From NCBI GenBank assembly GCA_015059095.1, contig SVBA01000017.1, positions 1 to 38,535 of the forward strand: a stretch of DNA of 38,535 nucleotides, read 5' to 3'. Source of the DNA: Erysipelotrichaceae bacterium (GTDB lineage: Bacteria; Bacillota_I; Bacilli_A; RFN20; CAG-449). Made by a program: the position numbers and the translations under genes. This document shows, piece by piece, positions 26,063 to 38,535 of the stretch (position 1 is the first letter of the stretch; each line of letters starts with the position of its first letter). Below the pieces are notes generated by a model. The model was not told where the DNA came from. It was given only the letters and a program-made list of their open reading frames with translations, and made no database searches.

Positions 26063-26569
26063 TTAAATATAAAATACATTACTTTCATCATATTGAGTTC
26101 TTTCTTCTAATTCACAATCTGGATATCCTACATGAATTAATCCTAACGGAATCAACGTTTCATCAATATTTAAAATTTCTCTAATCGCCTTAATTCTATC
26201 TTCCATTGGAAAAACGCCACACCAACAAGTCCCCAAGCCTAAAGAAGTCGCCATCAATAATATATTCTCAATACTACTCGAACAATCTTGAATCCAATAA
26301 TCTTCAACTTTATTAGTGACTGTATTAGTAGTATCCCCACACACAACTATATGCATAGGAGAATTAAAATTAAAAGAACGACCTGCAAATCTTAACTTTG
26401 CAAGTTTTTCTTCGTTTGTAACAATAAAGAACTTCCAAGGCTTTTTATTACAAGCGGAAGGTCCAGACATTGCTGCCATCATCAATTCTTTTACAATGTT
26501 ATCTTCTACTTTTTTATTTAAAAATTTTCTACAGCTTCTTCTTTTTAATAGTGCTTCTTTTAATTCCAT
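26063..26569 (-). CDS. nitroreductase family FMN-dependent oxidoreductase
   Basis: 168 residues from the chosen ATG. The N-terminal RRSCRKFLNKK is the FMN phosphate-binding motif, with GPSACNKKPWKFFIVT (PSxxNxQPW type) and LGTCWCGVFP later, typical of small single-domain nitroreductases. It should reduce quinones, flavins or nitro compounds with NAD(P)H; the natural substrate is unknown. The frame also opens at a GTG overlapping the previous TGA, but AAAGGTGA lies properly before the ATG at 26567-26569. Confidence 0.85.
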   Translation of the reverse strand: MELKEALLKRRSCRKFLNKKVEDNIVKELMMAAMSGPSACNKKPWKFFIVTNEEKLAKLRFAGRSFNFNSPMHIVVCGDTTNTVTNKVEDYWIQDCSSSIENILLMATSLGLGTCWCGVFPMEDRIKAIREILNIDETLIPLGLIHVGYPDCELEERTQYDESNVFYI

Positions 26570-26574
26570 ACTTA

Positions 26575-27123
26575 TCACCTTTCATTAACATAATATTCAT
26601 CAATAATTTTCGAATTTAAATCTAATAATAAAATTCTACCATTCACTAAAGCAATAAATGATTTTTTAGTATTTTCTTTAGGTAATGTAATAGATCCTGG
26701 ATTAATAAATGTTATGCCGTTAATTCTTTCGCATTTACTAACATGTGTATGACCATAAAAAACTATGTCTCCCTTTTGATAATTACTATTTTCTTTATCT
26801 AAATGATGGCCATGTTCCAAGTAAATAGTTTTTAAGTTATACATTATTTTCTTTTTATTATGTATTTTAAAATCTAATACCATTTGATCAACTTCTGCTT
26901 CGCAATTACCTTTAACCATAACAATTTTATCTTTTAAAGGATTTAATAACTTGATTACTTCTTTAGGATTATAACCTCTAGGAATATTATTTCTTGGTCC
27001 ATGATATAATAAATCACCTAAAATAATTAATTTATCAAATTTGTTAATTAAGAAAAAATCTACAACTTTCCTTAAAGTTGTAATGGAACCATGAACATCA
27101 GAACAAATAACATAATTTTTCAT
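26575..27123 (-). CDS. YfcE/MJ0936-like metallophosphodiesterase
   Basis: 182 residues. Calcineurin-fold metal motifs: SDVHGS, LGDLLYHGPR, GNCEAE, LEHGHH and YGHTH. The GNC(D/E) version and small size match YfcE-type phosphodiesterases with Mn2+ dependence; substrates in cells are unknown. The frame can be extended 16 codons, but the ATG at 27121-27123 with AAAGGA upstream is chosen. It ends in TGA, a rare stop in this window, overlapping the region of the next SD. Confidence 0.86.
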   Translation of the reverse strand: MKNYVICSDVHGSITTLRKVVDFFLINKFDKLIILGDLLYHGPRNNIPRGYNPKEVIKLLNPLKDKIVMVKGNCEAEVDQMVLDFKIHNKKKIMYNLKTIYLEHGHHLDKENSNYQKGDIVFYGHTHVSKCERINGITFINPGSITLPKENTKKSFIALVNGRILLLDLNSKIIDEYYVNER

Positions 27124-28409: not shown

Positions 28410-30938
28410 TTATTTTTTATATAAAATTCGTAGAGAGTTTAATACACAAAGTAAGCAGACACCAACATCTGCAAAAATTGCTATTAGCATCGCATATGAA
28501 TCTAATACACCAGTAATAGAAATAATGATTGCAATTATTTTAGTTAGTAATATAAAAACTAAGTTTTGAACAATAATACTTTTAGTAAATTTAGAAATTT
28601 TAATAATTTCATTAACTTTAGAAAGATCATCATTCATTATTACTACATCTGCAGATTCTTTAGCTAAATCCGATCCAATTCCTCCAAGAGCAATACCAAC
28701 ATCTGCTCTTTTTAATGAAGGAGTATCATTAATACCATCTCCGACATAAACAATATTTTTCTTTTTATTAGCAATTATTTCATCAACAATTGTATATTTT
28801 TCTTGAGGTAATAATTCTGATTTGACTTCTTTAATTCCTACTTCTTTTGCAACAAACTCTCCAAACACTTTTTTATCACCGGTAAGCATTAAAGTATCAA
28901 TTTTTTTATTATGTAATTGTTTAATAACTTCTTTTGAAGATTCTTTAATCTTATCTCTAACAGTAATACTTCCTAAAAACTCGTTATTCTTAGCAACATA
29001 CACAGCAGTTCCTACTTCTTCATTACAAACAGATTCAATAGAATATTCAATCATCAATTTATCATTGCCTACTAAATAAATGTCACCATCATGTTCCATT
29101 TTTAATCCATATCCTGATATCTCTTCAATAATCGAATTTTTAGTATCTACTTCTATTAGATTACCATTACAAATTGATTTTGCGATTGGATGATTAGAAA
29201 ATGATTCAACCATTGAAGCAATATTTAGTAATTCTTCTTCAGTTCCTTTTTCAACTTTAATAGAAACAATTTCAAATTCTCCTTCTGTAATGGTTCCTGT
29301 TTTATCAAAAATTATTTTTTCAATATTAGTTAGTGCTTCTAAATAGTTTCCTCCTTTAACTAAAATACCATGTTTAGAAGAAGAACCTAATGCAGCAAAA
29401 TAAGCTAAAGGAATAGAAATAACTAACGAACAAGGACAAGAAATAACTAAAATTGCAAAAACACTATTAAGTGCTTCTTGAATTGTCTTTTGATATATCA
29501 ATAATACAACCAATACTACTAATGAAATACATAGAACTATAGGAGTATATACTCTAGCAAATTTAGTAATAAATTGTTCAGAAGAAGACTTCTTTTCATT
29601 TGCCTCTTCTACTATTTTTTTCACTTTTGATAAAGTTGAATCCTTATATTCCTTTTTAACTTCAATAGTAACAACATTAGTTAAATTTATAGATCCAGAT
29701 AAAAGTTCATCATCCTCTTTTTTAAATATTGGTTCAGATTCTCCAGTTAATGCTTTCATGTCAAAAGAAGATTTACCCTCACAAATAATTCCATCAAGAG
29801 GAACTTTTTCACCAACTTTAACAAGGATTCGTTCACCAATCTTAACTTCTTCAATTTGTTTAACTATTCCATTAATCAAAGTAACTTCTTCAATTTCTAA
29901 ATCTATTAACTCTTTTATCGCATCTTTAGATTTTTTTGTTGCTTTATCTTGTAACGACTCACCAATTTTATATAATAAAATAACTGCACACGCTTCAAAT
30001 AATTCAATATCTCCAATAAATGAAAGAACAATAGCTCCTAAAGAAGCAATTACCATTAATAATGATTCATTAAAATAATCTTTGTGTAATATGCCATATA
30101 TCGATTTATATATTAAATCATATGCTAATAGTATATAACTAGTAATATATAAAACAAACAAAGGAATTATGTATCCACTACCGCTTATTAACGGGTCAAC
30201 ATTAAATAATTTTAATAATTCCTCATTTCCTAAAATATTTAATATTGTAGCAATACCAAATAAAATGCAACCTACTATAAACGCTGTTTTTTGCGAAAAA
30301 ATCATATTTTTTTTTATATTACACTGTTTATGAGCATGATGATTGCAACAACAATCATGTTCATCACCTTTGTTATGATGGTGATGATGCTCATGTTTTT
30401 CTTCATGACAGCAACATTCTTTTTTATGTTGATGGTCACAACTACATTCTTCATTGTGTTCATGATGATGATCACAACAACATCCCTCTTCATGTTCATG
30501 ATGATGAACTAGATTATTCAAAGATACTTTTGTCTTAAGTTCATTTTTATTTCTATAAATATTTGTATCTTTCTCGATACTTTTAACAATTGCTTCCACT
30601 TCTGAAAATATATCTTCTTCATTATGTTTAATAATAATTTTATTTGATAAAAATACTACATTTGCCTCTTTGATTAAGGTTGATTTATTTAATGCTACTT
30701 CAACTTTATTCGCACAGTTAGGACAATCAATTTCATCAAAATAGAATTCATCTATCTTTTCTTCTTTTTCATTTAATAAAGCTAATATATCTTCTTCCAT
30801 CAATTTTGCATTTGAAATAATTAATAATTCATCGTTATCTATATTTACGCTTTCAACACATTTATTACTTGTTAGCTTTTCTTTAACTATTTTAATATCC
30901 CATTGAGGATTAATTAAAACTTTCTTTTTATATTTCAT
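28410..30938 (-). CDS. zntA: Zn2+/Cd2+/Pb2+-exporting P1B-type ATPase with His/Cys-rich segment
   Basis: 842 residues. A degenerate HMA-like domain (1-57, no CXXC) and a true HMA domain with DCPNC (71-75) are followed by a segment at 145-206 with 21 His and 12 Cys. The P-type core shows TGES (398-401), the membrane CPC motif (501-503), the phosphorylation site DKTGT (D545), SNHP and GDGIND. The last helix pair carries ADVG, whose Asp with CPC marks the P1B-2 Zn/Cd/Pb class. It pumps metal out using ATP. It lies 11 nt downstream of the ArsR-type sensor gene and is co-regulated by it. Confidence 0.93.
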   Translation of the reverse strand: MKYKKKVLINPQWDIKIVKEKLTSNKCVESVNIDNDELLIISNAKLMEEDILALLNEKEEKIDEFYFDEIDCPNCANKVEVALNKSTLIKEANVVFLSNKIIIKHNEEDIFSEVEAIVKSIEKDTNIYRNKNELKTKVSLNNLVHHHEHEEGCCCDHHHEHNEECSCDHQHKKECCCHEEKHEHHHHHNKGDEHDCCCNHHAHKQCNIKKNMIFSQKTAFIVGCILFGIATILNILGNEELLKLFNVDPLISGSGYIIPLFVLYITSYILLAYDLIYKSIYGILHKDYFNESLLMVIASLGAIVLSFIGDIELFEACAVILLYKIGESLQDKATKKSKDAIKELIDLEIEEVTLINGIVKQIEEVKIGERILVKVGEKVPLDGIICEGKSSFDMKALTGESEPIFKKEDDELLSGSINLTNVVTIEVKKEYKDSTLSKVKKIVEEANEKKSSSEQFITKFARVYTPIVLCISLVVLVVLLIYQKTIQEALNSVFAILVISCPCSLVISIPLAYFAALGSSSKHGILVKGGNYLEALTNIEKIIFDKTGTITEGEFEIVSIKVEKGTEEELLNIASMVESFSNHPIAKSICNGNLIEVDTKNSIIEEISGYGLKMEHDGDIYLVGNDKLMIEYSIESVCNEEVGTAVYVAKNNEFLGSITVRDKIKESSKEVIKQLHNKKIDTLMLTGDKKVFGEFVAKEVGIKEVKSELLPQEKYTIVDEIIANKKKNIVYVGDGINDTPSLKRADVGIALGGIGSDLAKESADVVIMNDDLSKVNEIIKISKFTKSIIVQNLVFILLTKIIAIIISITGVLDSYAMLIAIFADVGVCLLCVLNSLRILYKK

Positions 30939-30949
30939 AAATATTACTC

Positions 30950-31246
30950 CTATTGGTGTTCTATATGTTTAAAAGTTAAATTAATAATATCGTAAACATG
31001 TTGATCATCTATTGAATAAAAAATATTTTGTCCCGATCTTCTATACTTTACTAGATGCATTTGTCTTAATAACTTTAATTGATAAGAAACTGCAGTTTGA
31101 GACATATTTACTTCTTCAACAATCTCACTAACACATTTTTCTCCACTCATTAAAACAAAAACGATCTTAAATCTAGAATAATCTGATAATGCTTTATAAA
31201 ACTCTGCTGTTCTTAAAATTAATTCATCTTGATCAAATTTTTTCAT
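30950..31246 (-). CDS. ArsR/SmtB-family zinc-type metal sensor (CzrA-like)
   Basis: 98 residues, winged helix. The recognition helix is SQTAVSYQLKLLRQMHLV and the wing is RRSGQNIFYSID. The C-terminal helix carries D81, H83, H94 and H97 with exactly the D-x-H-(10)-H-x-x-H spacing of the alpha-5 zinc site of CzrA and SmtB. The alpha-3 position has only one Cys (EKCVSEI), so Cd/Pb sensing as in CadC is unlikely. It represses itself and the ATPase gene and releases DNA on binding Zn2+. Its operator overlaps the promoter start at 31266-31289. Confidence 0.9.
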   Translation of the reverse strand: MKKFDQDELILRTAEFYKALSDYSRFKIVFVLMSGEKCVSEIVEEVNMSQTAVSYQLKLLRQMHLVKYRRSGQNIFYSIDDQHVYDIINLTFKHIEHQ

Positions 31247-31265
31247 AGTACTACCTCTTAATTAG

Positions 31266-37481: not shown

Positions 37482-38363
37482 TTAAACATATTTACTAATA
37501 AATTTTTTAATAACACTTTGATATAAATTAGTTTGTTTATACATTCCATTACCATGATTACATCCAGGTAAAATAATAATTTCTGTTTCTTTTGGACTAA
37601 TTTTTTGTAATCCATTTAATAAATCATCCATATGTTCATTTTCTCCTGCAGATAATAATAATGGATATTTAGCATTAGCAATTGTCTTAAATCCATCAAA
37701 TTTAGAAATATCAGTTTTAAATGTTTTATTAAATTTATTAACACAGTGTTTATATACTTCATCGCCATCTTTTTTAAAAGCAGAATGGGCAACAGCATTA
37801 AAGAATCCTTCAATACTTATACTTGGTGCATCCGCGATTAGACACTTAACATTTTTTATTTCTTTATCAATCAAATCTAAAACAATTCCTCCACCCATAC
37901 TTAAACCATGGATAATTATTTTACCATTAGGAATTCTTTTATTAATAAGGTCACACCATTTAATAATATCTAAATAATCTAAAGCACCAAAAGATATATA
38001 TTTCCCTTCACTTGGTCCATGTGCTCTTAAATATGGAATTAAAAAATTATATCCTAAAGAATGATAAAAAAGTCCTGGGAAAGCAGATTCTCTTTCAGCA
38101 TGACTAGTATATCCATGAACCCAAATAACAGTAATATCGCTACTTTCACTAGGGTAAAACAAACCTTTTAACTTTAAATTATCTTCACTTATTATTTCTA
38201 CATCTTCATGTGGAAGTTTTTTTATTTCCGCTAAAGAATTATGAACTTTAGTAATAGTATCATACCAAGAATCTTCTGGTCCTACCATTTTATATGCCCT
38301 ATTAATATCATGTCTTTTTAATAAAACGTTAAATAAAATATTTCCTTTTAATTTATTAAACAT
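37482..38363 (-). CDS. alpha/beta hydrolase (serine hydrolase, BD-FAE/UPF0227-type)
   Basis: 293 residues. VIWVHGYTSHAERESAFPGL is the oxyanion-hole HG region and IIIHGLSMGGGIVLDLI the nucleophile elbow (S155). SAGENEHMDDL probably carries the acid and LPGCNHGNG the catalytic His. There is no strong signal peptide. Members are esterases, lipases or peptidases of varied specificity. The frame extends to a TTG five codons earlier; the ATG at 38361-38363, 9 nt after GGAG, is preferred. Confidence 0.85.
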   Translation of the reverse strand: MFNKLKGNILFNVLLKRHDINRAYKMVGPEDSWYDTITKVHNSLAEIKKLPHEDVEIISEDNLKLKGLFYPSESSDITVIWVHGYTSHAERESAFPGLFYHSLGYNFLIPYLRAHGPSEGKYISFGALDYLDIIKWCDLINKRIPNGKIIIHGLSMGGGIVLDLIDKEIKNVKCLIADAPSISIEGFFNAVAHSAFKKDGDEVYKHCVNKFNKTFKTDISKFDGFKTIANAKYPLLLSAGENEHMDDLLNGLQKISPKETEIIILPGCNHGNGMYKQTNLYQSVIKKFISKYV

Positions 38364-38424
38364 AATCTTATTCTCCAATCTAGAATAATGATATCATATT
38401 TATTTATTTTATATAATTAAAAAA

Positions 38425-38450
38425 CAAAAAAACGACACCGAAGTGCCGTT
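38425..38450 (-). terminator. tRNA-type terminator downstream of the tRNA-Gly 3' fragment
   Basis: AACGACAC (38431-38438) pairs with GTGCCGTT (38443-38450), with a UUCG loop and a U run on the minus strand. It stands where the terminator of a minus-strand tRNA would be. Confidence 0.7.
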
Positions 38451-38460
38451 AATAATCTAA

Positions 38461-38479
38461 TGGAGCAGGTGACGGGAAT
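38461..38479 (-). pseudogene. 3' end of tRNA-Gly only: candidate attachment site
   Basis: On the minus strand the 19 nt ATTCCCGTCACCTGCTCCA are the T-arm end, acceptor strand, discriminator U and CCA of a tRNA-Gly. Upstream sequence (38480 on) has no tRNA structure: the anticodon and D arms are missing. Such 3' fragments remain at one end of elements integrated in tRNA genes. Confidence 0.6.
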
Positions 38480-38483
38480 TTTC

Positions 38484-38512
38484 TTCACTTACTTCATTTT
38501 TTATGATATAAT
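38484..38512 (+). promoter_or_regulatory. promoter pointing out of the right edge
   Basis: -35 TTCACT (38484-38489), a 17-nt spacer and a perfect -10 TATAAT (38507-38512). It begins five bases after the tRNA fragment, so it would drive the first gene of whatever lies to the right. Confidence 0.55.
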
Positions 38513-38535
38513 AATTATATAAAAAACTTATTGGA

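Follow-up and report, generated by a model that had tools for sequence, protein, structure and literature searches.

Features at the right end of the window

The window, by which is meant the whole stretch of DNA analysed (38,535 nucleotides), is a complete contig (C20) of a draft genome of 1.76 Mb in 38 contigs, and it stops on the right at a break in the assembly. Proceeding towards that break, the features that matter here are:

28410-30938, minus strand: P-type metal ATPase, used as a synteny anchor
30953-31261, minus strand: ArsR-type regulator, open frame, also a synteny anchor
37482-38378, minus strand: alpha/beta hydrolase gene (Pfam Hydrolase_4, 6.1e-10)
38431-38450, minus strand: intrinsic terminator with a TTCG loop, AACGGCACTTCGGTGTCGTT plus T-run
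38459-38479, minus strand: putative att core, 21 nt, the displaced 3' end of tRNA-Gly(TCC), matching C2:19817-19837 exactly
38480-38535, no strand assigned: putative terminal 56 bp of an integrated element (tRNA-distal end), differing from the expected tRNA-Gly body

On the minus strand, positions 38479-38459 read ATTCCCGTCACCTGCTCCATT, and the genome's intact tRNA-Gly(TCC) gene has the identical 21 nt at its 3' end. The preliminary description had recognised the last 19 nt of a tRNA-Gly here (ATTCCCGTCACCTGCTCCA, minus strand, 38479-38461); against the genome's own gene this match is exact up to the CCA, and the identity continues for 2 nt (TT) beyond it. The shared core takes in the end of the T-loop, the 3' strands of the T-stem and of the acceptor stem, the discriminator T, the CCA and the TT. 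The sequence TTCCCGTCACCTGCTCC has exactly two copies in the genome, one in the window fragment and the other at C2:19818-19834 inside the intact tRNA-Gly(TCC), so that the fragment is the only exact extra copy; the intact tRNA-Gly(GCC) gives a third match, which differs at two positions. The rest of the tRNA is absent, as had been described: there is no tRNA body upstream of the fragment, and ARAGORN calls no tRNA at this position. The fragment is intergenic, lies outside conserved protein domains and reaches the tRNA end rather than being internal, and the first chromosomal gene downstream of it encodes the alpha/beta hydrolase.

The terminator of tRNA type with a UUCG loop that had been noted behind the fragment is real (1 found versus 0.1 in shuffles), and its T-run extends to about 38422. 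It is most likely the original tRNA-Gly terminator, left with the chromosome flank. The fragment and terminator together align at 81% with the tRNA-Gly and terminator of C2. The ancestral status of the window's terminator is not certain, however, because the terminator of C2 resembles that of the tRNA-Gly in a congener (G003) more closely than the window's does. A sub-threshold Rfam match to a SAM/SAH riboswitch (plus strand, 38429-38467; 19.8 versus 40 bits) overlaps both the terminator and the tRNA fragment and was judged to be due to chance. On the other side of the core, positions 38480-38535 are cut by the contig end and match nothing else in the genome bin significantly. The outward promoter proposed there did not prove significant: TTCACT-17-TATAAT (plus strand, 38484-38512) is a consensus match only, with 3 promoter-like sites against 2.2 in shuffles, and has no bearing on the conclusion.

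The intact tRNA-Gly, the integrase and the contig break

The intact tRNA-Gly(TCC) is on a different contig (C2:19762-19835, plus strand), in a cluster with tRNA-Ser(GCT) and tRNA-Asp(GTC) that is present in most of the family genomes examined. C2 stops about 505 bp past this gene. The final open frame of C2, read from the minus strand, lies about 360 bp beyond the tRNA-Gly, has its 3' end pointing at the tRNA and is cut by the contig end; the 49 aa that are left (ITYLTYKNFTPMEICERTGHKDKTIIVNKYSHLINTYQKQIVDCINEDY) are the C-terminus of a tyrosine integrase. The tail matches the PHROG_7685 integrase (E = 1.1e-5, model positions 191-237 of 240), tblastn pairs it with annotated phage integrases at values as low as 2e-4, and the GH and Y residues of its motif GHKD...NKYSHL align with those of full-length integrases. 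It is below detection in Pfam and NCBIfam, its PDB matches to DARPins are composition artefacts, and close integrase relatives were not found in GTDB genomes.

In its C-terminal GH...YSHL motif, and in the position of its gene next to the att site, the protein resembles the tyrosine integrases encoded by temperate phages and by the integrative elements of low-GC Gram-positives (PHROG_7685, PHROG_1, Phage Wrath integrase). Unlike those full integrases, it is represented by its last 49 residues only, with identity of at most about 40% over most of that length, and for these reasons its subfamily cannot be named. An integrase gene beside the att tRNA, with its 3' end facing the tRNA, is the usual arrangement. 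Thus both partners that had been predicted to lie right of the window, an intact tRNA-Gly sharing the core bases and an integrase gene beside it, are present, but on C2, across an assembly gap. The orientations of the C2 and C20 ends match those required by integration at this tRNA gene, and physical continuity of the two contigs across the gap would follow from it.

The position of the break is itself informative. Among the contig ends of this genome, 16 pairs share exactly 77 terminal nt and 2 more overlap by 77, and the assembly k is therefore 77. As computed, the terminal 77-mer of C20 (38459-38535) and the shared core start at one and the same base, which is preceded by T in the window and by A in C2. 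C20 ends 56 bp past the core and C2 about 505 bp past the tRNA, both flanks facing the gap. A break at the core is what would be expected of a de Bruijn fork, at which a second sequence would carry the same core and element end with a different flank. This second branch may come from attP, if the element was present as a circle or in tandem, or from a further insertion. C2 runs through the core unbroken, although a fork caused by attP or attB might have been expected there as well. Among all 76 contig ends, neither an integrase N-terminus nor an overlap with the C2 and C20 ends was found.

Relatives and alternative origins of the fragment

Among the 18 family genomes, an exact copy of the 17-mer TTCCCGTCACCTGCTCC outside an intact tRNA is found only in the genome of the window; a double match in G013 corresponds to two intact tRNA-Gly genes. 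The other family genomes have tRNA-Gly without an adjoining PF00589 integrase, and none of their PF00589 integrases, judged by contig and coordinates, lies beside tRNA-Gly(TCC). The exact joined attB, consisting of the tRNA end and the window flank, was not found in GTDB genomes. It had been anticipated that relatives would carry an uninterrupted tRNA-Gly next to the hydrolase gene. This expectation was not borne out: in both relatives with a DNA match (G003 and G006) the hydrolase homologues, 60-62% identical, lie elsewhere, away from tRNA-Gly. Upstream neighbours vary between species, and the synteny of the hydrolase gene is uninformative.

In the congener G003, the intact tRNA-Gly has downstream of it the genes for an ArsR regulator and a P-type metal ATPase, arranged and oriented as they are in the window (31261-28410), which places the window's right end downstream of a tRNA-Gly. 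This association of the ATPase and ArsR genes with tRNA-Gly is seen in G003 only. G005 keeps the ArsR-ATPase run over a longer part of the window, though not near a tRNA-Gly, and in G006 a nitroreductase gene like that at 26063-26578 lies downstream of tRNA-Gly, such genes having paralogues. Synteny is thus supportive in one genome and neutral in the others.

Two further observations concern the same tRNA gene in relatives. Repeats of the GTCAAAAAATAAC type lie downstream of tRNA-Gly(TCC) in several of them (L200, L201, L070 and L203; G005, G001, G007 and G013). These were considered as kin of the element at C2 and C20 and are read instead as insertion sequences, since two of the repeat flanks carry transposase-like frames. 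In G004, a contig ends within the tRNA-Gly 3' end.

That the fragment is a decayed tRNA-Gly duplicate, or the scar of an ancient element since lost or rearranged, with no element now at the right, would fit the hydrolase not being beside tRNA-Gly in relatives, and only 56 bp can be read beyond the core. However, a relic of this kind is unlikely to show 21 identical nt with a sharp edge and no gradient of decay, nor does it account for the integrase adjoining the intact tRNA, for the end of that contig at the gap as well, or for the break of C20 exactly at the core; we consider this origin improbable. Still less likely is an assembly chimera, in which the core and the 56 bp would have been wrongly joined to the chromosome at 38459. 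Short repeats are places where assemblers misjoin, and the draft of 38 contigs includes at least one that looks foreign (C16), but with k = 77 no false join is expected over a repeat of only 21 nt, and a tRNA-type terminator stands in register directly behind the fragment on the chromosome side. A chance match can be dismissed, since about 8e-7 occurrences of a 21-mer are expected in the genome (uniform-base estimate), a count that already refutes it, and the match covers the CCA and is followed by a terminator.

Probable integration at tRNA-Gly and a possible family of elements

The 21-nt match, the intact tRNA and integrase on C2, the break at the core and the synteny in G003 together support the proposal that the window ends at the edge of an integrated element. 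We put at roughly 93% the probability that this end is the tRNA-distal junction of a tyrosine-integrase element (genomic island, ICE or prophage) inserted at tRNA-Gly(TCC). A mobile element with a tyrosine integrase would have entered the chromosomal tRNA-Gly(TCC) gene at its 3' end by site-specific recombination, and the element's own att site would have restored the tRNA that is now intact on C2 with the integrase alongside. The original last 21 nt and the original terminator would have been displaced to the far end of the element, where they would now be 38459-38479 and 38431-38450. The body of the element would sit past the right edge of the window, as had been suggested, in the gap that separates the right end of C20 (38535) from that of C2. 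A fork of the assembly graph at the att core is the probable reason for its absence from the bin.

Islands of the Islander type arise when integration splits a tRNA gene and the island restores it, so that the restored gene and a displaced fragment mark the two ends; the majority of displaced fragments are 3' ends (PMC4383910). The present case resembles these tDNA islands in having the intact, restored tRNA and the displaced 3' fragment at opposite ends, a tyrosine integrase and a crossover region of T-stem/acceptor type (PMC4383910). Of the Islander criteria, an intact tDNA with a cognate end fragment, a fragment that reaches the tRNA end and an integrase are all found here, the integrase gene being incomplete. 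In contrast to the Islander islands, in which the 3' fragment is downstream in the same orientation on the same replicon at 2-200 kb (PMC4383910), the interval here is not assembled.

A second integrated element is probable in the same genome. A complete integrase gene at C31:1943-3028 (PF00589, 2.4e-22) adjoins tRNA-Leu(GAG), and at C8:7003-7018 (L205) there is a 16-nt fragment of a tRNA-Leu 3' end that has a terminator-like hairpin of its own; its neighbours are a gene for a phage-type repressor and small genes that match no family. Taken as the two parts of one element, C31:1-3222 (L076) and the C8 fragment can be counted as a same-genome parallel for integration at tRNA-Gly. A further contig of this draft, C16 (3.2 kb; L095, L135), carries a long frame like a retrotransposon gag-pol, with motifs recognised by eye, and has probably come into the bin as eukaryotic contamination.

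The C2 and C31 elements share a 105-bp repeat with two hairpins, 99% identical between L005:10095-10199 (C2) and L076:184-288 (C31). It adjoins the integrase gene on C2 and sits at the element's left end on C31; C2 has a diverged second copy, and there is no comparable match in 57 other genomes. Patterns like attP or attR were also sought, as was the repeat in IMG/VR, and nothing was found. A tentative reading, to which we give somewhat less than even odds, is that the element was active in the sampled population, the break at the core reflecting both attR reads and attP reads from an excised circular or a tandem form, and that it is a member, with the tRNA-Leu element of C31/C8, of a single family of integrative elements in this genus that has the two-hairpin repeat in common.

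The recombination event, as reconstructed from these junctions, is an ordinary tRNA-targeted integration of a common and well-understood type. Its value for this organism is that the exact insertion site is marked and the two contigs flanking an unbinned mobile element are named, which is useful for finishing the genome. Draft contig ends can coincide exactly with att cores, so that a displaced tRNA fragment found at the end of a contig is a pointer to a lost element.
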